Below the pieces are notes generated by a model, which had not been told where the DNA came from, did no database searches, and saw nothing but the letters and a program-made list of their open reading frames with translations. DNA of 36,563 bases from Candidatus Nitrotoga fabula (GTDB lineage: Bacteria > Pseudomonadota > Gammaproteobacteria > Burkholderiales > Gallionellaceae), in NCBI RefSeq assembly GCF_905221025.1, contig NZ_CAJNBL010000030.1, forward strand, positions 1-36,563, written 5' to 3'. The translations under genes were made by a program, and so were the position numbers. This document shows, in pieces, positions 1,728 to 36,563 of this stretch. Positions within the stretch are counted from its first letter, which is position 1; the number at the start of each line of letters is the position of its first letter.

Positions 1728-3662
1728 TCAGCCTTTTTCTCCTTTTTCTTTCTCATCTTTTACCTCAGTAAATTCGGCATCTACTACATCACTGTCATCC
1801 TTGGTACTACTTGCATGTGCGCCAGTTTCCTCGGATTGGCCTGACTGTGCAGCATGCATTTTTTCGGAGAGTTTTTGTGCGGCAGTGGAAAGTGCTTCAG
1901 CCTTGGAATCAATGATTTCCTTATCATCGCCTTTTACTACGTCCTGGGCGTCCTTCAGGGCTGATTCTATCGCAGATTTTTCGTCCTCGGTCAGATGCTC
2001 TCCGAATTCCTTCATGGATTTCTGTGTTGAGTGGATGAGTGCATCCAGCTGATTTCGCGATGCGACCAATTCGAGAGCTTTGCGGTCGTCTTCAGCATAC
2101 GTTTCTGCATCCTGCACCATTCTTTGAATTTCAGCTTCAGACAAGCCTGAATTCGCCTTGATGGTAATCTTGGACTCTTTGCCGGTTGCCTTATCTTTTG
2201 CTCCAACATGCAAAATACCATTCGCATCGATATCGAATGTTACTTCAATCTGTGGCATGCCACGCGGAGCTGGTGGAATGTCGGAAAGATTGAATTGTCC
2301 CAGACTTTTGTTGCCTGCAACCACATCGCGTTCCCCTTGCAACACGTGAATGGTCACCGCATTCTGATTGTCTTCTGCGGTAGAAAACACTTGTGATGCC
2401 TTGGTTGGGATGGTGGTATTCTTTTTGATCAATTTGGTCATAACGCCACCCAAGGTTTCAATACCCAGGCTGAGAGGGGTGACATCAAGCAGAAGAACAT
2501 CTTTAACTTCACCCTGCAGCACTCCGCCCTGGATAGCTGCTCCTACGGCTACAGCTTCGTCCGGGTTGACGTCTCGCCGGGCTTCCTTCCCGAAGAAATC
2601 CTTGACTTTTTCCTGTACCATCGGCATTCGTGTCTGACCCCCTACTAAGATCACATCAGAGATATCGGAGGTGGAAACGCCTGCGTCTTTCATGGCAATT
2701 TTGCATGGGGCTATAGTGCGTGCTACCAAATCTTCCACCAGGCTTTCAAGTTTTGCACGGGTCATTTTGATGGCCAGATGTTTTGGGCCACTGGCGTCCG
2801 CCGTGATATAGGGCAGATTGACTTCTGTTTGCTGCGCAGAGGAAAGCTCGATTTTTGCCTTCTCTGCTGCGTCTTTCAGTCGTTGCAGGGCCAGCATATC
2901 CTTCTTCAGGTCAATTCCATTTTCTTTCTTGAATTCTTCAACCAGGTATTCAATAACCCGCATGTCGAAATCTTCACCGCCGAGGAACGTGTCGCCGTTG
3001 GTGGACAGCACCTCAAACTGGTGTTCACCGTCAATTTCGGCGATATCAATAATGGAAATATCAAAGGTTCCACCGCCCAGGTCATATACCGCGATTTTCC
3101 GGTCGCCTTCCTGTTTATCCATGCCAAATGCCAGTGCAGCTGCAGTAGGCTCGTTAATGATGCGCTTTACTTCCAAACCGGCAATGCGACCTGCATCTTT
3201 GGTAGCTTGGCGCTGGCTATCATTGAAGTAAGCAGGCACGGTAATAACCGCTTCACTGACTGGTTCGCCAAGATAGTCTTCCGCAGTTTTTTTCATTTTC
3301 ACGAGTACCTGCGCGGAAATTTCCGGAACGGAGATGTCTTTGTCGCGAACATTAACCCATGCGTCGCCATTTTTTGCTTTTACAATGGCATACGGCACCA
3401 TGCCCATGTCTTTTTGAACCATCGGTTCTTCAAAGCGGCGACCGATCAGTCGTTTTACACCAAATAGCGTGTTTTTCGGATTGGTTACAGCCTGTCGTTT
3501 GGCAGGCGCGCCAACCAGTATTTCACCGTCTTCCATATATGCGATGATGGACGGTGTGGTACGGGTACCTTCGGCGTTTTCTATGACTTTAGGTTTGCCG
3601 TTTTCCATGACCGCAACGCACGAGTTCGTGGTGCCCAGGTCAATACCAATAATTTTTCCCAT
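1728..3662 (-). CDS. dnaK: Chaperone protein DnaK (Hsp70)
   Basis: This is the 644-residue ATP-dependent Hsp70 chaperone. The nucleotide-binding domain starts with GIDLGTTNS at 6-14, has [14 protein letters not shown] at about 141-154 and the second phosphate motif DLGGGTFD at 194-201. The substrate-binding beta domain follows (around 390-505, containing [14 protein letters not shown]), then the helical lid and an acidic disordered tail with [11 protein letters not shown] Shine-Dalgarno AAGGGA lies about 6 bases before the ATG. DnaK works with DnaJ (ATPase stimulation) and GrpE (nucleotide exchange), and all three are clustered here. The gene is 158 bases downstream of grpE, with its own candidate sigma-32 promoter in the gap. 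Confidence 0.99.
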
Positions 3663-5706: not shown

Positions 5707-5894
5707 CGTTACAATAGATAGGCAATTCAGGCATCATGATGGTGATAAATCATTATAATAAGCCCGTAAATAAGTAATCAAAATTTTATTTTTATATGTA
5801 TCTGGTTTAATAAGGATTTATTTAAAATAACTGTGGTGAGTCTGGTGTCCTGGGGTTGAGTTTTAGGTGCTTTTTAGGTTAGTTCTGCATGGCC

Positions 5895-5916
5895 CTTGAT
5901 CATTTCTTGATCATTT
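5895..5916 (+). repeat. Perfect adjacent 11-bp tandem repeat upstream of the PbpG-like gene
   Basis: CTTGATCATTT occurs at 5895-5905 and again immediately at 5906-5916. The period is one helical turn, and each copy contains the palindrome TGATCA. The repeat lies about 65 bases before the start of the peptidase gene in an AT-rich promoter region, so a cooperative regulator-binding site is conceivable. No specific regulator can be named. Confidence 0.5.
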
Positions 5917-5980
5917 TTGAATTTTGATTTATTTTAATAACGTAATATGCTTAATTAAATTGTTATCCATTGGTAATGAT

Positions 5981-7018
5981 ATGTGCAAGAAACTCTTGAT
6001 GCTGTTATTGCTGTTGACGCCCGCGCTGGCAGTACAGGCTGCACCGGATACAGAAATTCCTCCAAAAATACTTTCCAAGAAAGTAATTCCAAAAAAACCT
6101 GCCGTAAAAAAAACAGCTTCCGGGCTGGCTACGCCAAAAAAACATAGAACAAGCAGCAGGAAGCACCGGGCAATCACGAAAAAACACCATAAAATAATTG
6201 CCAGACATTCAGTTCGCAATCATGCCAAAAAGGTTTCAGCCCATAGTGTTTCGCCGAAACTGGGTTCCTCCATTGCACTGATTTACGACGAACAGGAGCA
6301 GAGGCCATTGTTTAGCAAGAATGCCAATGCAGTTGCTCCTATTGCGTCGATAACTAAACTTATGACTGCGATTGTGGTGCTGGACGCGGAGTTGCCCTTG
6401 GATGAAAAAATTACCATTAGTGAGTTTGATTTTGATACTCTCAAAGGTACTCATTCGCGTATGCGCGCTGGCATGACGCTGACACGTGGAGAATTGCTCA
6501 ATCTGGCATTAATGTCTTCCGAAAATCGTGCCGCTGCTGCCTTGGCGCGAACTTACCCCGGGGGTACCAAAGTAGCCGTGGCGAAGATGAATGCCAAGGC
6601 GCGCGAACTGGGCATGACCCACACCCATTTTCTTGATGCGACCGGGTTAAATAGTGGCAATACTTCCACTGCGCAGGATTTGGTCAGAATGTTGAGTGCG
6701 GCCAAAAACTATAAAGCGATCCATGAGTACAGTACTACCGCTTCACATATAATTGAGGCTCCGGGATTCCCGCCTTTGCGTTTTGGAAATACTAATCCAC
6801 TGGTTAAAAATGCATCTTGGGATATAGGGGTAAGTAAAACCGGTTATATTAATGAAGCAGGGCGCTGCCTGGTGATGCAGGCGCATATCATGCAACGCCC
6901 GGTGATCATTGTTTTATTGGATTCGCAGGGTAAGCATACGCGGGTTGGCGATGCTAACCGTATAAAAAAATGGATGGAAACTTCCGCCATGCGCGGACGT
7001 AATATACAGAGAGGGTAA
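5981..7018 (+). CDS. pbpG: D-alanyl-D-alanine endopeptidase/carboxypeptidase, PbpG (PBP7)-like, MEROPS S11
   Basis: This is a periplasmic penicillin-binding protein that trims or cleaves D-Ala cross-links in peptidoglycan. From the ATG at 5981 the protein has 345 residues and opens with a signal peptide (MCKKLLMLLLLLTPALAVQA). The frame is open upstream to 5924, but that would bury the signal sequence. The three catalytic motifs are intact: SITK with Ser123 and Lys126, SEN with Ser180 and Asn182, and KTG at 286-288. Between the signal peptide and the catalytic domain (about residues 30-95) is a very basic Lys/His/Arg-rich linker that could bind anionic cell-wall polymers. There is no C-terminal amphipathic anchor of the DacA type, which fits PbpG rather than PBP5. 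Confidence 0.92.
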   Translation: MCKKLLMLLLLLTPALAVQAAPDTEIPPKILSKKVIPKKPAVKKTASGLATPKKHRTSSRKHRAITKKHHKIIARHSVRNHAKKVSAHSVSPKLGSSIALIYDEQEQRPLFSKNANAVAPIASITKLMTAIVVLDAELPLDEKITISEFDFDTLKGTHSRMRAGMTLTRGELLNLALMSSENRAAAALARTYPGGTKVAVAKMNAKARELGMTHTHFLDATGLNSGNTSTAQDLVRMLSAAKNYKAIHEYSTTASHIIEAPGFPPLRFGNTNPLVKNASWDIGVSKTGYINEAGRCLVMQAHIMQRPVIIVLLDSQGKHTRVGDANRIKKWMETSAMRGRNIQRG

Positions 7019-7067
7019 GCTACTGGTGCAGCCCTGAAAGGAATAATCCGGTTTTCAGCATATTTAA

Positions 7068-7102
7068 AAATGGCATGTCAAAAATATGTACGACCGCCAT
7101 TT
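7068..7102. terminator. Weak hairpin between convergent pbpG and fabI
   Basis: AAATGGC at 7068-7074 pairs with GCCATTT at 7096-7102 across a 21-base loop, in the gap between two convergent genes. The surrounding DNA is AT-rich. It is a possible bidirectional transcription end point, but the loop is long and no good T-run follows. Confidence 0.25.
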
Positions 7103-7176
7103 CTAAGTTTGGCTGATAATAAAAATGTATTTTTGGCGATTATCCGGGTCGAACGATCAAGGATGCTTCGGTCAGG

Positions 7177-7965
7177 TTAGGGTTCAGTCGTTCCCAGCGC
7201 GGTAGTATTGAAGCCGCCATCGACATAGGTAATTTCCCCGGTGATACCGCTGGCTAGATCGCTGCAAAGAAAGGCCGCGGCGTTGCCTACCTCTTCCGTG
7301 GTGACATTGCGTTTCAATGGTGCATTTTTTGCGTTGTAGTTCAATAGTTTGTTAAAGTCGGCAATGCCAGCTGAAGCTAGTGTCTTGATTGGGCCTGCGG
7401 AAATGCCATTGACCCGTATTCCCTTGCGCCCCAGATTCATTGCCAGATAGCGGACACTTGCCTCTAGGCTCGCCTTGGCTAGCCCCATCACATTATAGTG
7501 TGGCATGGTACGTACGGCACCTAAGTAGCTCAATGTCAGAAGTGATGCTGCGCGACCCTCCATCATTGGCAGGGCTGCTTTGGCCATTGCCGGAAAACTA
7601 TATGAGCTGATGTCATGCGCAATCTGAAAGGATTCGCGGGTAAATCCGTCAAGAAACTCACCTGCTAAAGCTTCGCGCGGAGAATAGGCGATTGCATGTA
7701 CGAAGCCGTCAAATTGATCCCAGTGTAGGTTAAGGCTTGTAAATAGTTGGTGAATTTCCGCATCACTCGATACATCGCACGGGAATACTAATTTACTGCC
7801 AAACTCGTCGGCTAGTTCATGTACCCGATCTCGTATGCGATCTCCCTGAAAAGTGAATGCCAGTTCTGCGCCTTCGCGCCGCATGGCTTGCGCAATACCA
7901 TATGCAATGGAGCGATTGCTTATTACACCAGTAATCAGTATGCGTTTGTTTGCAAGAAAACCCAT
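7177..7965 (-). CDS. fabI: Enoyl-[acyl-carrier-protein] reductase (NADH), FabI
   Basis: FabI reduces trans-2-enoyl-ACP in the last step of each type II fatty-acid elongation cycle. It is a short-chain dehydrogenase fold with the variant nucleotide motif [13 protein letters not shown] (13-25, where E. coli has GVASKLSIAYGIA). The catalytic FabI pattern is present: Tyr147, Tyr157 and Lys164 (Y-x6-K, in YNVMGLAK). The ATG at 7965 has a clear AAGGGAG Shine-Dalgarno; 14 extra in-frame codons upstream are not family-like. Length is 262, normal for FabI. It is a single gene, convergent with pbpG. FabI is the triclosan/isoniazid-class target family; no resistance change can be judged here. Confidence 0.96.
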
Positions 7966-8185
7966 GTTACTCCCTTGATCAGATTGTTGCTGGAAAAATT
8001 CATGCAATTATAACCGTACTACGCATGTTCATGCGTAATGCTGGTTCAGATATGAGCTAAAAAGTTTCAGGTTTCTGGGAATGGACAGGTTTTTATGATG
8101 GATAGAAGGCGGAGTGGCTTGCCCTGGGATTTTCGGATTAGCGATAATCTTAGAAAAGATTGCTTTTTGTGAAAGCGAGGAAGAC

Positions 8186-9977: not shown

Positions 9978-10661
9978 ATGAGCAGAGGCAGGATTAAATT
10001 GGAAAGAATTTCGTCGGATTTGCCGCGTCCCGCAGTGACTACTGTAATTCTAGCGGGGGGATTAGGCACACGCATCGGCGGGGAAAAAGGTTTGAAGCTG
10101 TTGCATGGAAGGTCATTGATTGGTTGGGTTTTGGATTCAGTCAGTCATCAGAGTGAAGAAATATTAATTAATGCGAATGGAGAGCTTGACCCATATTCAT
10201 GTTTTGGCTATTCCATTATTGCGGATCAGATTCCGGATTGGCCGGGTCCACTTGCAGGATTGCAGGTTGCTTTACGATGTGCACGACATGACTGGGTTGT
10301 GAGTGTCCCTTGCGATACCCCATTCCTGCCAGATAATTTGATTTCTGGTTTATTCGAGGCGGTGAGACAGTCTGGCAGGAAGGAGGCTTCTGTGGTTCTG
10401 GTCGCAGGGAGGCGGCAACCTACCATTGCCCTGTATCATAAAAGCGTGCTTTTGAAGTTGGATAATTATCTGGCTTCAGGAGGGCGCAAGGTTAATGGCT
10501 GGCTGGAAACCTTGCAATTGGGCGAGGCTCAATTTGATAATGAAACGGCATTTAAAAATATCAATACACCCGATGATTTGGTTTTTGCGAAAGCAATTTT
10601 AGAGCTGGAAGTTGCCAGGGAATTTCCTGATTCATTGATGTGCAACAGAGAAGTAAAATAA
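9978..10661 (+). CDS. mobA: Molybdenum cofactor guanylyltransferase MobA
   Basis: MobA transfers GMP from GTP to molybdopterin to make the guanine dinucleotide cofactor of DMSO-reductase-family enzymes. The nucleotidyltransferase signature is near the N-terminus (ILAGGLGTRIGGEKGLKLL), followed by DQIPDWPGPLAGLQVAL and the metal-binding VSVPCDTPFLP. These three together are diagnostic for MobA rather than MocA or sugar nucleotidyltransferases. The frame opens with TTG at 9969; I chose the first ATG at 9978, though neither has a good ribosome site, and the conserved domain only begins about 20 residues in. It is alone, with no other molybdopterin gene in the window. Confidence 0.93.
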   Translation: MSRGRIKLERISSDLPRPAVTTVILAGGLGTRIGGEKGLKLLHGRSLIGWVLDSVSHQSEEILINANGELDPYSCFGYSIIADQIPDWPGPLAGLQVALRCARHDWVVSVPCDTPFLPDNLISGLFEAVRQSGRKEASVVLVAGRRQPTIALYHKSVLLKLDNYLASGGRKVNGWLETLQLGEAQFDNETAFKNINTPDDLVFAKAILELEVAREFPDSLMCNREVK

Positions 10662-11065
10662 ATGATTCAATAGCTTAATGTCTGATATTCAGACTGAGGT
10701 TGGATAATCAGGTTCACCATAAGCACAGTAATGGCAAGGTCGTTATTTCTGTTATTTCCACACGGTGTATATCCAGGGATAAAGAGAATTCGCAAAGATT
10801 GCTGAAATTAAGTCGGGCCGTGCAGAACCCCCCATGTGGCAGAGTATTTCCTGAAATATCAGTTGTCATTTCTTTTGAGAATCTTTTTTATATGAGCAGG
10901 GGGGTGTCCTGTTACCTGTCTGGCTGTTGTTTTGCACCCGGGATTTTAATGCCTTTGCTAAATGCGGATTTTTTCATGATTTGAGAGAATTTTGGAAAAA
11001 CAGATTGATTACATTCAAAAATTAATTTTATAAATTAAACGGTTAATTATAATTTTGTGGTGAAA
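10662..11065. other. Intergenic region between mobA and the Lon-like protease
   Basis: About 400 bases contain no convincing gene. A frame at 10700-10984 starts with TTG, has no ribosome site and no recognisable motif. The last 70 bases before the protease gene are strongly AT-rich (for example TTAATTTTATAAATTAAAC) and probably hold its promoter. I see no riboswitch or clear terminator. Confidence 0.5.
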
Positions 11066-13486
11066 ATGTCCATTTCAAATCTAATACCCGCCGATCTTCG
11101 CTTTAACATCATTCCCGAGTCCCTCGGGTTTTCTGATACTTCAGAGTTGCAATACGATTCACTCCCCTGGATTGGGCAGGAACGTGCGGAAATGGCCGCC
11201 CGATTCGGGCTGGGGATGGATCAGCCCAACTATAATTTATTTGTACTGGGTGAGACCGGAAGCGGTCGGTCTTCCTTGCTTAGGCAGGCCATGGAGGCCG
11301 CCGCATCCAATAAAGCACTCCCTCCGGATTTATGTTATCTGCATAATTTTGATGCGCCCGAAAGACCCCAGGCCCTGTTTCTTCCTGCAGGGCAAGGGCG
11401 TTTGTTGCGCAATCTGCTGGCACATCTGGTGAAATCAATACAGTCGGAAATTCCAGGGTGTCTGGAGGGACAGGAGTTCAAGGCCGAAAGCGAACGTATT
11501 GAACGAAACTACAAGGAGGCAGAATCCAGAATTTTCAGTGAGCTCGAGATATTTGCCGAAATGCGCAGCTTTTCAATTCAGCGTGAGGCAGGGCGCATGG
11601 TGTTTACGTTGCTGGGCAAGAAAAAGCATGCGCTTACAGAAGATGAAGTGCTTGCTCTGCCAAAAGAGAAAAGAGCCGAGATAAACCAGGCAGAGCAGGA
11701 ATTAAGAGCAAAAATTGCCGGATATTTTGAGGAAATGCGGCCTCTGGAGCGATTGAAGATCAATGGCCTTGTAGAGTTACGCCGCCAGGTGGTAAAGCCG
11801 GTATTGGACCGTGAATTGCAGGAAATCAGGCATGGGCTGGATCACAAATATCAGGATTATGCAAAGCTGGATGCGTATCTTGAGCAGGTCATGCAAGATG
11901 TGCTCAATCATCTTGAGTTATTCAAGACTGCTGATATGGATGAGGAAAGCCATTCGGATATTTTGGGGAAAGTATTATCACGCTACAGAGTTAATCTGGT
12001 GGTGGACAATCATGGCCTGAAAGGTGCGCCGGTGCTTGTAGAAGATAACCCTACATTCCATTCATTGTTTGGCAGTATCGAATATCAGTCCGAAAGCGAT
12101 GTGCTGGTAACGAATTTTACCCGGATCCGAGCAGGTGTCCTGCACAAAGGGCATGGTGGTTTTTTAATGCTGCATCTTCGTGATTTATTGGCCGATGAGA
12201 TGATCTGGGAGAAGTTGCGACGTTTCCTACGCAGCGGAAAACTGCAAATCGAAGAGCCAGGCATGGCTTTTTCGCCGATGGCGGCTGTTTCGCTTATACC
12301 GGAAGTGGTTCATGTTGATGTGAAAATCATTCTAATTGGCTCACGCGAACAATATTATGATTTACAGGAACATGATCCGGAGTTTGCACGTAGTTTTCGC
12401 GTCAAGGTGGATTTTGCGGAGAGCTTTTTATCCAGTCCTGAAACTCGCCGCGCCTCATCAATTTTTATTGCCCATGCTAGCCACAATCTGGGGTTGCCGC
12501 ATTTTACAGCCGCCGCGGTAGCGCGGATGCTCGAAGATTCTCATCGGGAAGCAGAGGATCAGACCCGCCAAAGTGCAATTTTTTCCAGAGCCGAGGCTCT
12601 GGTAATGGAAAGCGCCGCGTTTTGTCGTACCCGTTCTGGCATTCTGGTGAACGAAGGAGATGTCGAGGCGGCATTGCGTGCGCGTTCCCTGCGTCATGAT
12701 TATCCTGCCCAGCGCATACAGGAGTCGATTGCAGAAGGAGATGTCCTGATAACGGTACATGGTGAGAATGTCGGGCAACTGAATGGACTTTCTCAGGTAG
12801 ATTTGGGTGATTACCGTTTCGGCCTTCCCGTCAGGATCACTGCCCGTACTTTTGCCGGGGAGGATGGTTTGCTCAATATCGGTCGCGAAGTGGAGATGTC
12901 CGGGCCGATCCATGATAAGGGTGTGTTGATTCTGCAGAATTATTTGTCTGCCTTGTTTGCTCATATTGCGCCACTTGCCATGAATGCATCGATTGTTTTT
13001 GAACAGGATTATTATGGAGTAGAAGGAGATTCTGCTTCTTGCGCAGAACTTTATGTCTTGTTTTCATCCCTGTCCGGTTTGCCCCTCAAACAAGGAATTG
13101 CCGTAACAGGTGCGGTTAATCAGTACGGTGAAGTGTTGCCGGTAGGTGGGGTCAACGAAAAAATAGAGGGGTATTATCGTGTTTGTGAAGCAGCCGGTCT
13201 GGATGGTAGTCAGGGGGTGTTGATTCCATCCCGGAATCGGAGAAACTTGATGCTGGAACGGAATGTCATTGAGGCTGTGGCCAGCGGTTTATTCCATATC
13301 CATTCGGTGGAACATACGAGCGAAGGAATTGAACTACTTACAGGAGTTCCAGCTGGTATTGTGGGCGGAACCGGCAGTTATCCTGCAGGTAGTGTGCTGG
13401 GTCTTGTCCAGAGCACCCTGCATGCTTACCGTCGTGCCTGTCAGTTGCGGGATCATCAGAAAGAAGGGAAAAGGCATCTGCGCTGA
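11066..13486 (+). CDS. Lon-like (LonB/LonC-type) AAA-linked serine protease, S16
   Basis: A soluble protein of about 806 residues. The N-terminal AAA-type region has an altered Walker A, GETGSGRS (about 62-69), with Arg where Lys is usual. A long coiled-coil insertion (about 120-290) follows, then an AAA_32/LonB-type core (GGFLMLHLRDLL, then an arginine-rich segment). The C-terminal Lon proteolytic domain is complete: catalytic Ser656 in GDSAS and Lys699 in GGVNEKIEG. Their 43-residue spacing equals that of Ser679-Lys722 in E. coli Lon. No N-terminal Lon substrate domain and no membrane helix are present, unlike archaeal LonB. GTG codons at 11057 and 11060 are alternative starts. Confidence 0.9.
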   Translation: MSISNLIPADLRFNIIPESLGFSDTSELQYDSLPWIGQERAEMAARFGLGMDQPNYNLFVLGETGSGRSSLLRQAMEAAASNKALPPDLCYLHNFDAPERPQALFLPAGQGRLLRNLLAHLVKSIQSEIPGCLEGQEFKAESERIERNYKEAESRIFSELEIFAEMRSFSIQREAGRMVFTLLGKKKHALTEDEVLALPKEKRAEINQAEQELRAKIAGYFEEMRPLERLKINGLVELRRQVVKPVLDRELQEIRHGLDHKYQDYAKLDAYLEQVMQDVLNHLELFKTADMDEESHSDILGKVLSRYRVNLVVDNHGLKGAPVLVEDNPTFHSLFGSIEYQSESDVLVTNFTRIRAGVLHKGHGGFLMLHLRDLLADEMIWEKLRRFLRSGKLQIEEPGMAFSPMAAVSLIPEVVHVDVKIILIGSREQYYDLQEHDPEFARSFRVKVDFAESFLSSPETRRASSIFIAHASHNLGLPHFTAAAVARMLEDSHREAEDQTRQSAIFSRAEALVMESAAFCRTRSGILVNEGDVEAALRARSLRHDYPAQRIQESIAEGDVLITVHGENVGQLNGLSQVDLGDYRFGLPVRITARTFAGEDGLLNIGREVEMSGPIHDKGVLILQNYLSALFAHIAPLAMNASIVFEQDYYGVEGDSASCAELYVLFSSLSGLPLKQGIAVTGAVNQYGEVLPVGGVNEKIEGYYRVCEAAGLDGSQGVLIPSRNRRNLMLERNVIEAVASGLFHIHSVEHTSEGIELLTGVPAGIVGGTGSYPAGSVLGLVQSTLHAYRRACQLRDHQKEGKRHLR

Positions 13487-32808: not shown

Positions 32809-35800
32809 TCAGCCCATTCCTTTTGCCAGGAAATCCAGGCGGTCGCGGAGGATTTTGCCCACTGCCTGGTGGCTGTAGCGGGCCGCCATGTCAGCCGCGG
32901 CGCAGGCTGAAATGCGCCGGCGGTATTGCGGGTCTGCGAACAGGCGGGCCATGAATTCCGCCGCATGGTCGATATCGGGGTCCGCCCACATCCAGCCGGG
33001 CTCATATTCCAGGTATTGCCGCGGCTTGACCGGTATCAGCGTGTAGTCAACCAGGCAGCTGTTCCCGTCGTTCATGAATTCCAGGTTGCCCGAATAAGCG
33101 GTGCCGATCACCGGCTTGCCCAGCGCCATGCATTCCGCCATTCCCAGGCCCAGTCCTTCCGAGCGATGCAGCGAAACATAGGCATCACATACGCTTTGCA
33201 GCCCATGCATTTCCCCGCGGGAGAGCAGGCGGTTCAGAATCGTGATCCGGGAGTCTTGTCCGGCCATTTCCTGCAGCAAGGCGAATTTTTCCGGTTGCAA
33301 ATGCTCATTGTGGCATTTGATGACCAGGCCTGCCTGGTTTTCCCGGACAGAAAAGGCGCGCCGGAATGCCTCGATTACCGCCCAAGGGTTTTTCCTGTCT
33401 GCATAAGAACTGAAATCAAAATTGAACAGGAACAGAAAAGGGTGATCCGGCAGAGAGAAATCGCTGCGCCGGTAGGGTCGTTCAAGTGCCACTTCGATGG
33501 CATGAGGGATCCGGATGACGGGCTTCCCGGTAGCCCGCCTGGCAAGCCGCTCGATGAATTCGCTGGCGACCCAGATTTCATCGATCCGTTCGAGCGCAGG
33601 CCGCCATTTTTCCGGAATGGGGTCGATTTCCCAGAACAGGTAGCTGATGGTGCGCCGCCCGCGCAGGCTGCCCTGCTCGCAATAGCGTCGCCATGCCAGC
33701 TCGAGCTGGCCCGGGGGAACAAAAAACAAAGTGTTGCGCTGGCTGTTGCTGCGGGTCAGCAGAGCGTCCAGGTTGCGGTTGGTTTGCCTGCACTCCAGCA
33801 TGACGTCCGCGTCGTGCAGGTTGGCGGCAATGCCGCCGGCATGGCAGGTCGCCGCCAGGGTGCGCACGCTTTCGGCAAGGCCGAACTCCCATCTGAAATA
33901 GCCGACCAGGTTCAGGCCATTCCCGGTTACGGGTTCGGGTTCCGGCAGGGCTTCCTCCTGCTGCGCGAGGCGGTCCTCCAGACTGGTCAGCATATCCGGG
34001 GCCAGGGTGATCTGCCCGCGGACAAGGGCTTTTGCCAGGTGCGCGTATCCGTTCGTCGCGCGCGACGGGGCGAATTCGTTTTCCGGCGAAGAAGACATCG
34101 CCCTGACGAGATAATCCGCGACCATTTTTCCATGCTTTTCGCGGTCCTGTCCGGGTTGCGACCCGGCGCCATGCTTCCCGGCCAGCCGGGTGCGGTACAG
34201 GCGGGCAGGCACCAGGCAGGGCTCGGCAAGATACAGCGCGCGCAGGCAGAAGTCCCGGACAAGGCAGGGCTGATTGGCGCGGAAGCCGCCGAGCCTATCA
34301 TGCAGCGTTCGCGAGAAAAACAGGTTTCCGCCGGCAATCACAGGGTTCACGGCATCAAGCAGTGCGCTGCCGACCGTGTCCGCCGAGGACAGGGCGTCCT
34401 CGACCCTGGAAAGGGTATAGTCCCGGCTTCCGCTGGCGGGGGAAATGGCCTGGTCGTGCGCATCCAGGTCTTCGCACCGCGAAAATCCCCAGGAAAAGCC
34501 GCGTCGCGCGACCTGTTCCACCATTTGTGCGATTCGCTCCGGCGCGAACCGGTCTGCCGGGTGCAGCGGGTGGATGAACTCCCCGCAGCTGGCAGCGATG
34601 GCCGCATTCCATGCGGCTTCCGCCTCCCGGCTGGCCGTCGGCGTGACCCGTCGGTGCGGGAACGGGAAATCCTGCAGCCGGTTCCGGATTTTTTCCGCAG
34701 AATCATTGGGAGAAGCATCGTCCACGACGACCAGCTCCAGATTGCGGTAGGTTTGCGCGCGCACCGATTCCAGGGAATCCCCGATGCCGGCGGCATCCTC
34801 AGAATAGACCATCACCACGCTGACCAGTGGCTGGAAATCGGGACGGCAGGTCCGGGCGGTCAGCCAGCGGTCGTAATCCCGGCGCAGCCTGGAGCGCAGT
34901 TCCGTGTCGCGGCCCAGCATGCGGGTGCCCAGCGCCAGGCCGTAATTAAACAGGATGCCCGGCGCCTGCCAGCCGGTCAGTTCGCCGGCGCGGCGGATCA
35001 GGCCGGATGCCTCGCGGACCCGGTGCAGGCTGAACAGGACGACCCCGAGCATGTGCAGCGCCCTGGGATCGTCGTTTTTGTGCCGGAGCGCCTGACGGTA
35101 GAGCTGTTCCGCGCGTTCGAAATCCCGGGTGCGCTGCGCGGCAATGGCCAGTTCCATGATGGAATCGAACGACGCGGGGGTTCCGGGCACGGCGAGCGTG
35201 CTCCACCTTCCGCAGCATTGCTCGTAGCGCTTTCTGCTGCCGCAGGGGCAGGCCTTCAGACGATTCAGCAGGACGGAGGCCCCGGGAGAGCCAACCTTCA
35301 TCCTGCTTGCAAGAACCTGGCGCAGATTAAAGAATGCCAGGGGCTGATAGTCGCTCGTGGTCAGAAGCAGATTCAGGTCTTCGCTGATTTCGATTCCTTT
35401 GGGGCCACCCTCCTGCGGATTCACCCGGCCTTTCCTGAAAACCTCCTCGCTCATCACCCGGAACGAGCCGGCCGGGAAATAGGTTCCTGCCCAGCGATCG
35501 CCATTTCGCTCGTAAATGTGCACGAACGGCGCGCCGGCATCGGCCACGACCAGAAACCGGTCCTGCATCGCGAAGCGGATGCCGTGAGGATAGGTGGCGC
35601 CATACAATAGGGCGCAGGGGGGGCTGTCCCGGCTCAGTTCCGGGGTGTTTTCATACAGGAAAACGCAGTGCTTGCCGTGGTTGCTGATCGCAATCCAGCG
35701 ACCCTCACCGCTGACCGACACCCCGTCCGGAATATCGAGGCCCGAGACGAGCAGCATTTCATTCTGCTGCAAGGCCGGGGAGGCATTCATGTCCAGGATG

Positions 35801-36279
35801 TGGCGGGAAACGTAGTGGGAATAATTGTTGCAGATCAGCACTTCGTAGCCCCTGCCCTTCAGTCCGGTTGCCGCAATCGACCCGGGGGAATGGAGCCAGG
35901 GGTTGTGCGAAAAAATTTCCAGATCAGGTAGCTCAACCCTGCGGTTTGCATTGCTGCGAGGCGGCAGCTGCAGCGCCGATACCCCGCCCTGGCGGTTGGC
36001 CACGAGCAGGGTCTGGTCGTCCAGGAAAGCCAGGCCATGCGGATCCTTCAGCCCGGGCGAGGAGATTTCCAGGAAATTGCGGATGGCCAGGCGGGGTTGC
36101 GCATTCGTGCCGTCGCGATCCATTTCAAGCAGCAAAATCCGGTTGCGGATGAATCCGGCGATGGCCAGGCGCCGGCCATCCGGGGACAGCTTGATATCTT
36201 CGGTGCGCCCCAGCCCGATCAGGGCTTCCTGAACTTGCCGGGTTATGACAGGCTGGGGATTCATCGGGGTATCGTGCAT
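32809..36279 (-). CDS. Multidomain glycosyltransferase: beta-propeller, SEC-C motif, TPR-like helices, GT2 and GT4 domains
   Basis: A 1156-residue protein; ATG 36279 or, five codons later, ATG 36264. The first ~340 residues look like a beta-propeller, with repeated blade motifs such as LSPDGRRLAIAG and PHGLAFLDDQTLLVANRQGG. A SEC-C zinc motif CPCGSRKRYEQCCG is at 344-357. TPR-like helices follow (about 370-460: FERAEQLYRQAL). A GT2-type domain (about 484-700) starts PLVSVVMVYSE and has the DDAS metal site at 520-523. A GT4-type domain (about 790-1156) has the EGLGLGMAE motif with Glu1041 and Glu1049, nucleotide-sugar binding style. No signal peptide or membrane helix. The gene is markedly GC-rich. 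It is likely a cytoplasmic enzyme making a surface or protein-linked glycan; the substrates are unknown. Confidence 0.85.
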   Translation of the reverse strand: MHDTPMNPQPVITRQVQEALIGLGRTEDIKLSPDGRRLAIAGFIRNRILLLEMDRDGTNAQPRLAIRNFLEISSPGLKDPHGLAFLDDQTLLVANRQGGVSALQLPPRSNANRRVELPDLEIFSHNPWLHSPGSIAATGLKGRGYEVLICNNYSHYVSRHILDMNASPALQQNEMLLVSGLDIPDGVSVSGEGRWIAISNHGKHCVFLYENTPELSRDSPPCALLYGATYPHGIRFAMQDRFLVVADAGAPFVHIYERNGDRWAGTYFPAGSFRVMSEEVFRKGRVNPQEGGPKGIEISEDLNLLLTTSDYQPLAFFNLRQVLASRMKVGSPGASVLLNRLKACPCGSRKRYEQCCGRWSTLAVPGTPASFDSIMELAIAAQRTRDFERAEQLYRQALRHKNDDPRALHMLGVVLFSLHRVREASGLIRRAGELTGWQAPGILFNYGLALGTRMLGRDTELRSRLRRDYDRWLTARTCRPDFQPLVSVVMVYSEDAAGIGDSLESVRAQTYRNLELVVVDDASPNDSAEKIRNRLQDFPFPHRRVTPTASREAEAAWNAAIAASCGEFIHPLHPADRFAPERIAQMVEQVARRGFSWGFSRCEDLDAHDQAISPASGSRDYTLSRVEDALSSADTVGSALLDAVNPVIAGGNLFFSRTLHDRLGGFRANQPCLVRDFCLRALYLAEPCLVPARLYRTRLAGKHGAGSQPGQDREKHGKMVADYLVRAMSSSPENEFAPSRATNGYAHLAKALVRGQITLAPDMLTSLEDRLAQQEEALPEPEPVTGNGLNLVGYFRWEFGLAESVRTLAATCHAGGIAANLHDADVMLECRQTNRNLDALLTRSNSQRNTLFFVPPGQLELAWRRYCEQGSLRGRRTISYLFWEIDPIPEKWRPALERIDEIWVASEFIERLARRATGKPVIRIPHAIEVALERPYRRSDFSLPDHPFLFLFNFDFSSYADRKNPWAVIEAFRRAFSVRENQAGLVIKCHNEHLQPEKFALLQEMAGQDSRITILNRLLSRGEMHGLQSVCDAYVSLHRSEGLGLGMAECMALGKPVIGTAYSGNLEFMNDGNSCLVDYTLIPVKPRQYLEYEPGWMWADPDIDHAAEFMARLFADPQYRRRISACAAADMAARYSHQAVGKILRDRLDFLAKGMG

Positions 36280-36301: not shown

Positions 36302-36502
36302 TCATTCTTCGCGCCGCTTGGCCAGCCCGGAAAGCACGGCCACCATCAGCAGGCTGGATACCCAGCCAAATAGGGTTTCAAGCCACATCAGCAAGCGGGT
36401 GGCATGCTTCCAGTCAAACAGGGTCAGATGGTATGGACGCCTCCCCCCGGCAGCGGGAAGTGGCACACTGGCACGAGGGGATCCTCGCTGTAACGGCATC
36501 AA
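36302..36502 (-). pseudogene. Short membrane-helix ORF, possibly the remnant end of a larger membrane protein
   Basis: The 66-residue frame ends with a hydrophobic, tryptophan-containing stretch (LFGWVSSLLMVAVLSGLAKRREE) preceded by LTLFDWKHATRLLMWLET. It looks like the last helix and basic tail of a larger membrane protein; the first 25 residues look like unrelated Pro/Arg-rich sequence. There is no ribosome site for a start within it. The fragment lies 20 bases upstream of the glycosyltransferase gene on the same strand. I cannot name the family. Confidence 0.35.
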
Positions 36503-36509
36503 TGTGCCA
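36461..36509. repeat. Nested inverted repeats upstream of the last gene
   Basis: TGGCACA at 36461-36467 is the reverse complement of TGTGCCA at 36503-36509. Inside lies a second, compact hairpin CGAGG (36474-36478) / CCTCG (36483-36487) with a 4-base loop. The structure ends 44 bases before the ATG of the next gene. It could be a regulatory leader or a boundary of an inserted segment. Confidence 0.45.
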
Positions 36510-36553
36510 AAGTGGAGAAGCTGAACCCAACCACTTGAACAGGAGGATCCGAA

Positions 36554-36563
36554 ATGAAGAATA
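36554..36563 (+). CDS. Start of a further gene, cut by the window edge
   Basis: A very strong Shine-Dalgarno AGGAGG at 36541-36546 is followed after 7 bases by ATG at 36554. Only three codons (Met-Lys-Asn) are visible. The Met-Lys-Asn start would fit a secreted or membrane protein signal, but nothing can be concluded. Confidence 0.55.

Follow-up and report, generated by a model that had tools for sequence, protein, structure and literature searches.

A five-part protein of Candidatus Nitrotoga fabula that joins a beta-propeller, SEC-C and TPR parts and two glycosyltransferase domains, with loss of conserved motifs in the GT2 domain

Members of Candidatus Nitrotoga, which NCBI places in the Gallionellaceae, are nitrite oxidisers of cold waters and treatment plants. 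Here, we describe a gene of Candidatus Nitrotoga fabula that joins, in a single open reading frame (ORF) of 1156 codons without an internal stop (32809 to 36279, minus strand), a beta-propeller, a SEC-C motif, TPR-like helices and two glycosyltransferase (GT) domains, one of family GT2 and the other of family GT4. The window analysed is a whole contig of 36,563 bases belonging to a 2.3-Mb genome, labelled G000. We give roughly even chances to the explanation that the product is a soluble surface-glycan glycosyltransferase that works through its GT4 domain, docks through SEC-C and TPR, and carries a dead or decaying GT2 domain together with a propeller of ligand type. According to this explanation, the multi-module protein would act in the cytoplasm in surface-glycan assembly, with GT4 as the working enzyme in this organism, adding a sugar to the glycan. 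In the ancestor, GT2 would have served as a second, active transferase, as it still appears to be in relatives; in the window protein it would be catalytically dead and retained for its position in the chain, or else decaying. SEC-C and TPR would form a docking arm, common to several transferases of the family, that binds a protein partner, while the propeller, a separate module also found alone, would bind or hydrolyse a small ligand in the style of paraoxonase/SMP-30 enzymes.

An earlier note on this DNA had proposed the five parts in one chain, and both the open frame and the positions of the residues it named are borne out: Cys344, Cys346, Cys355 and Cys356 (C-X-C-X8-CC), DDAS at 520-523, and Glu1041 and Glu1049 (EX7E). 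Translation probably starts at Met6 (36264), where the four Nitrotoga orthologues described below begin in the alignment. The propeller, which is NHL/paraoxonase-like, spans residues ~11-328 (35296 to 36249; all parts lie on the minus strand) and is matched by the Pfam NHL profile at 78-96 (hmmscan, 20.4 bits, cut-off 20). It is followed by the SEC-C motif at residues 343-358 (35206 to 35253; PF02810, 19.8 bits by hmmscan and 25.0 by genome search, cut-off 20.4), which scores 30.7-33.5 bits in the four orthologues and whose four cysteines are invariant in five of five sequences. The TPR-like helices (residues ~371-435; 34975 to 35169) match several profiles under their cut-offs, among them TPR_19 at 385-431 (23.1 vs 25 bits) and TPR_14 (22.3 vs 23.5). 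The GT2 domain (residues 484-700; 34180 to 34830) is identified by Glycos_transf_2 (PF00535) at 488-593 with 49.5 bits (cut-off 23.3), and the GT4 domain (residues 786-1152; 32824 to 33924) by Glycos_transf_1 (PF00534) at 961-1124 with 36.8 bits (cut-off 26.4); between them lies a fast-changing linker (residues 701-785; 33925 to 34179). An AlphaFold model of the whole chain from five sequences was of low confidence (predicted local distance difference test, pLDDT, 34.9), so that the GT2 and GT4 folds rest on sequence profiles. Residues 371-410 were among its few better stretches (block pLDDT 70-84), with helices at the TPR position. Hydropathy revealed no membrane helix across the five-part protein (largest 19-residue mean 1.19). 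On the opposite strand, an ORF of 894 residues (32926-35610, plus) is taken as a putative antisense shadow of the GC-rich gene.

When the 158 genomes of the family were searched with the whole protein, 120 gave a match of some kind, usually to one part only, and five contained the full chain, namely the window and G098, G099, G100 and G108. These represent five of the 19 members of the genus, some of which are incomplete assemblies. The orthologues of the four other Candidatus Nitrotoga are 61-62% identical to the window protein and share its domain order, as the earlier note had anticipated of homologues. A chimera of assembly or sequencing is unlikely because the chain is complete and stop-free in these four genomes, and we rule it out. 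The note had also raised stop codons in related strains as a sign of two genes joined in error; the four complete orthologues have none, but an interrupted orthologue does exist in G320, a genome of another family of the same order, where the frame is broken within GT2, away from any junction between domains. There, a 639-residue ORF holds propeller, SEC-C, TPR and GT2, and the remainder of GT2 plus GT4 continue in another frame. This break (L062:7418-9337 and the following stretch, minus strand) is either natural or a sequencing error. G320 supplied the one strong match in a propeller-profile search of 399 genomes of the order, which gave four matches in all, two from the genus of the window and one weak. 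Since the full architecture occurs in another family, it is predicted either to predate the genus or to have passed between families. Among the titles and starts of abstracts listed in a literature search, with most subscription papers outside its coverage, none describes a SEC-C glycosyltransferase or a fusion of this kind; the words concerned do occur together in PMC3877243, PMC9677677 and PMC13118837.

The window copy departs from its relatives in the GT2 region. Across 13 other SEC-C-TPR-GT2 rows (12 distinct genes, L016 and L066 being the same gene, and with L020 shortened), 73 columns are invariant; the window protein is changed in 26 of them, all within residues 484-710 (26 of the 68 columns there). 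These changes include P491V at a PSYN-like site, NSDD to HPAD (D575A; codon 575, 34555 to 34557), NHDWD to CLVRD (D674V; codon 674, 34258 to 34260) and H700A; both codons hold the first aspartate of the respective motif in relatives, and the motifs lost here are kept in 13 of 13 rows. The HDWD aspartate at the position of codon 674 we take, from GT2 enzymology, to be the expected catalytic base, and a role for the second acidic site is presumed on the same grounds. When each row was left out in turn, L020 showed 13 changes, missing columns counted, and the other 12 rows showed 0-3, several of them being shielded by near-identical sisters. G320 was left out of the count, its GT2 being interrupted; its motifs look intact when read by eye in two frames. 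The earlier note had taken GT2 as active on the strength of DDAS. That motif is indeed present and looked intact because Asp520, Asp521 and Asp576 remain, but the NSDD and NHDWD aspartates and the His700 position are lost, and the domain looks catalytically dead in the window copy. The other 47 of the 73 columns are kept, the DFCLRA stretch included, and the frame is open throughout, a pattern that a pseudoenzyme might show.

For the GT4 domain, a test on nine sequences shows the window protein changed in 3 of 76 otherwise invariant columns, and EX7E (33133 to 33159) is kept in all nine; in the same test, the most distant row, L063, showed 24 changes in 97 columns and G320 six in 79. Averaged over the four orthologues, identity is 71% for GT4, the best conserved part, 62% for the propeller, 54% for GT2 and 39% for the linker, the lowest of six segments. 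These figures bear on whether the whole gene is in decay, with function lost from one module after another in the window copy and no module mattering any longer. Such a course would fit the lost GT2 motifs, the divergent linker and a propeller tree in which the window branch measures 0.42 and the stem shared by the four other Nitrotoga 0.15, as well as the location of the gene, which lies at the end of a contig and away from glycan clusters, and the interruption of one other copy. We nevertheless consider it unlikely: all 1156 codons are still open, and whole-gene decay is disfavoured because GT4 keeps 73 of its 76 invariant columns and the propeller 41 of 41.

The base composition of the gene is also distinctive. 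The GC content of third codon positions (GC3) is 0.755 in the fusion ORF vs 0.43-0.45 in the four orthologues, the third positions being strongly different, and vs 0.37-0.67 for the other listed ORFs of the window. Along the contig, GC3 climbs from ~0.48 near a dnaK-like gene to 0.65 and then to the value of the fusion ORF. Contamination by a foreign contig was ruled out, the fusion ORF grouping with the Nitrotoga copies (support 0.998) on a contig whose genes include some that, by reading, are of housekeeping type; the fusion gene may have been transferred in the past from a GC-rich relative.

Comparison with partial relatives suggests that the fusion is built of four blocks: propeller, SEC-C-TPR-GT2, linker and GT4. 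The earlier note had paired SEC-C with the propeller and looked for a break at residue ~360; we instead place the block boundary at ~338, before SEC-C, because SEC-C-TPR-GT2 occurs without the propeller, so that SEC-C opens the SEC-C-TPR-GT2 module. This module stands alone in a protein of 452 residues on contig C2 of G000 and in proteins of ~470-534 residues in other Nitrotoga. It also precedes a sulfotransferase-like tail in proteins of ~1040 residues, the tail being recognised in G095 at 27.6 bits (cut-off 27) and in G108 by similarity. In three of four loci, the stand-alone gene is followed by a gene of ~300 residues that reads like a second GT (L042:6422-7342, L046:8267-9160 and L047:8257-9150); in L066 it is not. 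Relatives of the GT4 block with 37-38% identity occur alone or within a 1688-residue protein (L063:5089-10155, in a genome of the same family) that matches sulfotransferase, GT4 and GT2 profiles and constitutes another large fusion.

SEC-C itself turned out to be more widely deployed than the earlier note had stated, which placed it at the end of SecA and in small adaptors. Four of the seven SEC-C motifs of G000 lie inside transferase-type ORFs: that of the window, one on contig C1 with GT2 and GT4, one on C2 with GT2, and one on C9 with a clear DUF5672 match beside a GT9 match that, at 21.9 bits, falls slightly short of its cut-off of 22. The remaining three belong, by reading, to SecA and to two short ORFs of YecA type; the latter two (L002:1480-2187 and L003:1162-1575) have near-identical SEC-C tails, and one is apparently shorter. 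Genus-wide, 88 SEC-C hits were found in 19 genomes and classed by frame length only: 62 lie in long, non-SecA-type frames of at least 378 residues, seven in frames of fewer than 300 residues, and 19 in presumed SecA, of which 17 have 904-913 residues and two have 724 and 738, each of these two being the sole SEC-C hit of its own genome. Across the family, nine of 11 examined SEC-C loci were scanned, one of the other two (L029) being without an ORF by motif and the other (L034) short. In the nine SEC-C/TPR proteins, a GT41 domain follows in four, a sulfotransferase in one and a methyltransferase in one, and DUF5672 precedes in one; the other two (L032 and L036), whose ORFs are possibly cut by the locus end, have no transferase among their best 25 families. 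The SEC-C/TPR transferases of the Gallionellaceae, whether of GT41, GT2, sulfotransferase or methyltransferase type, resemble the five-part protein in that SEC-C and then TPR stand before the transferase domain, although the order of parts varies, as in the GT2-TPR-SEC-C-TPR-GT4 protein of contig C1. They differ in that, among the proteins examined, only the five-part group has an N-terminal propeller.

The SEC-C motif of the five-part protein shares the C-X-C-X8-C-[CH] core with the C-terminal metal-binding domain of SecA, with YecA and with YchJ, but is internal, accompanied by no other part of SecA or YecA, and lacks the GRNDP preface that precedes the cysteines in the SecA and YecA motifs of G000, as do its four orthologues. 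A role in protein glycosylation before export, which the earlier note had hinted at and in which SEC-C would recruit SecB or clients bound to the ribosome or the Sec machinery, TPR would hold the polypeptide and the GT domains would glycosylate it ahead of secretion, appears to us improbable, even though several observations point that way. The GT41 domains of the four family proteins are OGT-like, and HMW1C is a GT41 enzyme as well. HMW1C is reported to be a protein glycosyltransferase (PMC3012730). The metal-binding domain of SecA is reported to bind SecB, and YecA has been proposed as a Sec chaperone, the latter in work that is not peer-reviewed (PMC8076867). SecB was found in six of six genomes tested, but this has no discriminating value because almost every alpha-, beta- and gammaproteobacterium is reported to have SecB (PMC8076867). 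Set against this role are the missing GRNDP preface, the lack of any recognisable acceptor protein among the genes beside the window gene, and the location of the interrupted G320 orthologue within a polysaccharide export cluster. A broader conjecture, which we hold to be rather doubtful, is that SEC-C/TPR serves as a general arm bringing GT41, GT2, GT4, GT9-like, sulfo- and methyltransferases to Sec-held proteins for decoration before export. The five-part protein would then be the most elaborate case, with the propeller acting on the same client or glycan and GT2 as a non-catalytic subunit.

The propeller predicted by the earlier note before residue 340 is confirmed with high confidence by AlphaFold, which modelled residues 1-340 from 15 sequences (pLDDT 89.7; predicted template modelling score 0.88); the strand list of the model yields six blades, the sixth with short strands. 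Across these 15 sequences 41 columns are invariant, none of which is changed in the window copy, and their polar residues include E27, D28, H81, N95, R96, S134, C150, D185, N200, H201, H232 and K294. As read from the strand list, E27, H81, S134, D185, H232 and K294 start the first strands of blades, and N95-R96, C150 and N200-H201 lie at strand ends. For the whole propeller, NHL proteins and designs head the PDB profile matches (E 1.9e-10), and paraoxonase-1 (PON1) reaches 4.7e-6; for residues 1-130, PON1 ranks first (E 2.7e-7). Paraoxonase/SMP-30 enzymes use a catalytic His dyad and calcium ligands. In the window protein, H81 aligns to PON1 His115 and N95-R96 to Asn133-His134 (chain numbering obtained by counting along the alignment). 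The likeness to PON1, SMP-30 and NHL propellers extends from fold and profile match to the His115 position of PON1, whereas the window protein differs from PON1 in having Arg at the His134 position and in its fusion to glycosyltransferases. The conserved polar residues suggest a putative ligand-binding or enzyme-type module and not a plain scaffold.

Propellers of this kind also occur without transferases. Matches were found in 4 of 369 genomes of a class-wide sample, in 11 of 299 genomes of a phylum-wide sample, and in 10 of 150 further genomes from the order of G320, where only G320 was strong; matches of at most 24 bits were set aside as general NHL/YVTN propellers (G443, G625, six phylum-sample genomes and nine of the 150-genome set). 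In the class and phylum samples, strong full-length propellers outside the genus occur in G545, G558 and G917, with no GT fusion as judged from ORF length, and G1150, G968 and G948 have short matches only. In G558, a genome of the same class, two stand-alone propellers adjoin (L072:1501-2442 and 2491-3513). A scan of named contigs gave 10 loci with a propeller, of which four are Candidatus Nitrotoga sp. LAW, MKT, CP45 and 1052. Five others are near-full-length propellers in ORFs of 354-440 residues, from a Methylomirabilota metagenome-assembled genome (MAG), a Pseudomonadota MAG, Methyloceanibacter marginalis, Aminobacter anthyllidis and a Piscirickettsiaceae MAG, and the tenth, from a Solemya velesiana symbiont, is partial. 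Pfam identified no GT domain in the three of these five that were scanned. Several stand-alone propellers have, by reading, a coiled coil at their end together with a SWRITAPLR-like tail of a type known from glycan-cluster proteins. This occurrence in several lineages, together with the invariant polar residues and the PON1 alignment, could mean that the core function lies in the propeller, acting as a lactonase or an enzyme like an esterase, and that the GT parts only follow it. We judge this quite improbable, however, given that no shared enzyme partner of the stand-alone propellers is known and that the fold similarity to PON1 is moderate: Foldseek placed PON1 at rank 45 (template modelling score 0.57, 18% identity), with many WD40-type propellers ranked higher (0.44-0.57). 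The top matches are propellers by title, many of them seven-bladed.

Surface-glycan synthesis through GT4 is favoured because the G320 context is a Wzm/Wzt-type polysaccharide cluster. At its ends lie an ABC ATPase with Wzt_C on one side and an ABC-2 permease on the other, with the interrupted orthologue between them. It contains GT99-type and giant GT2 proteins, methyltransferases, a DUF4254 gene, a 1477-residue protein with three GT2 stretches and one GT4 stretch, and, two genes from the orthologue, a gene for a DUF5672-SEC-C-TPR protein. The DUF4254 and DUF5672-SEC-C-TPR genes also adjoin on contig C9 of G000 (L044:5133-5795 and 5802-8087, on opposite strands; in G320, L062:9515-10129 and 10126-12453, on the same strand), and the products of G000 and G320 share 49% identity for the one gene and 40% for the other, making this a conserved pair. 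Additionally, the nearest GT4-only relatives in the family (37-38% identity; G058 and G014) lie among what appear, by reading, to be glycan genes, with a GDP-mannose dehydratase-like gene, likewise by reading, directly after the GT4 gene in G014 and ~4 kb off in G058. Wzt_C is over its cut-off in G320 and in the four Nitrotoga that carry orthologues. Multi-domain GT2-GT4 enzymes are a known kind in ABC-transporter-dependent polysaccharide clusters. The five-part protein resembles them as a soluble multi-GT chain and, in G320, in its place between Wzm-like and Wzt-like genes; it differs in its added SEC-C, TPR and propeller, in the decayed GT2 of the window copy, and in that the window gene and its four Nitrotoga orthologues stand outside such clusters.

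Several points weigh against this explanation. The context argument rests on one genome, and the G320 cluster may no longer use the gene because its copy is interrupted; peptidase-like ORFs, by reading, also occur within that cluster. The genes beside the fusion ORF in the window encode an endonuclease/exonuclease/phosphatase, a regulator of Rrf2 type and a globin that carries reductase domains, and in the four other Nitrotoga the gene lies outside a glycan cluster, directly before minCDE (named by reading). Wzt_C is found in G000 below the cut-off only (28.8 and 27.0 bits), a weakness that may accompany the GT2 loss, this being a single case. No acceptor, donor or partner was identified for the five-part protein, and the GT2 decay could be the start of whole-gene loss. 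A position shared with the other Nitrotoga was ruled out, the minC-like gene of G000 lying on contig C2 after a methyltransferase-like ORF (both by reading). Upstream, at a distance of 22 bases from the fusion ORF, lies the last part of another ORF (36302 to 36562, minus strand), which is truncated where the contig stops and is a possible operon partner.

To our knowledge, the surface chemistry of Nitrotoga is little known. Two points may be unexpected even to specialists. One is the series of proteins in which SEC-C and TPR accompany transferases; the other is that a single active site appears to have been lost selectively, for which the window offers a natural case in a multi-enzyme chain whose other modules are conserved. 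If the docking idea is true, SEC-C, known chiefly from work on SecA and small chaperones, would be the hallmark of a little-studied group of cytoplasmic glycosyl-, sulfo- and methyltransferases and would offer a direct handle on the way in which bacteria select the targets of these enzymes.

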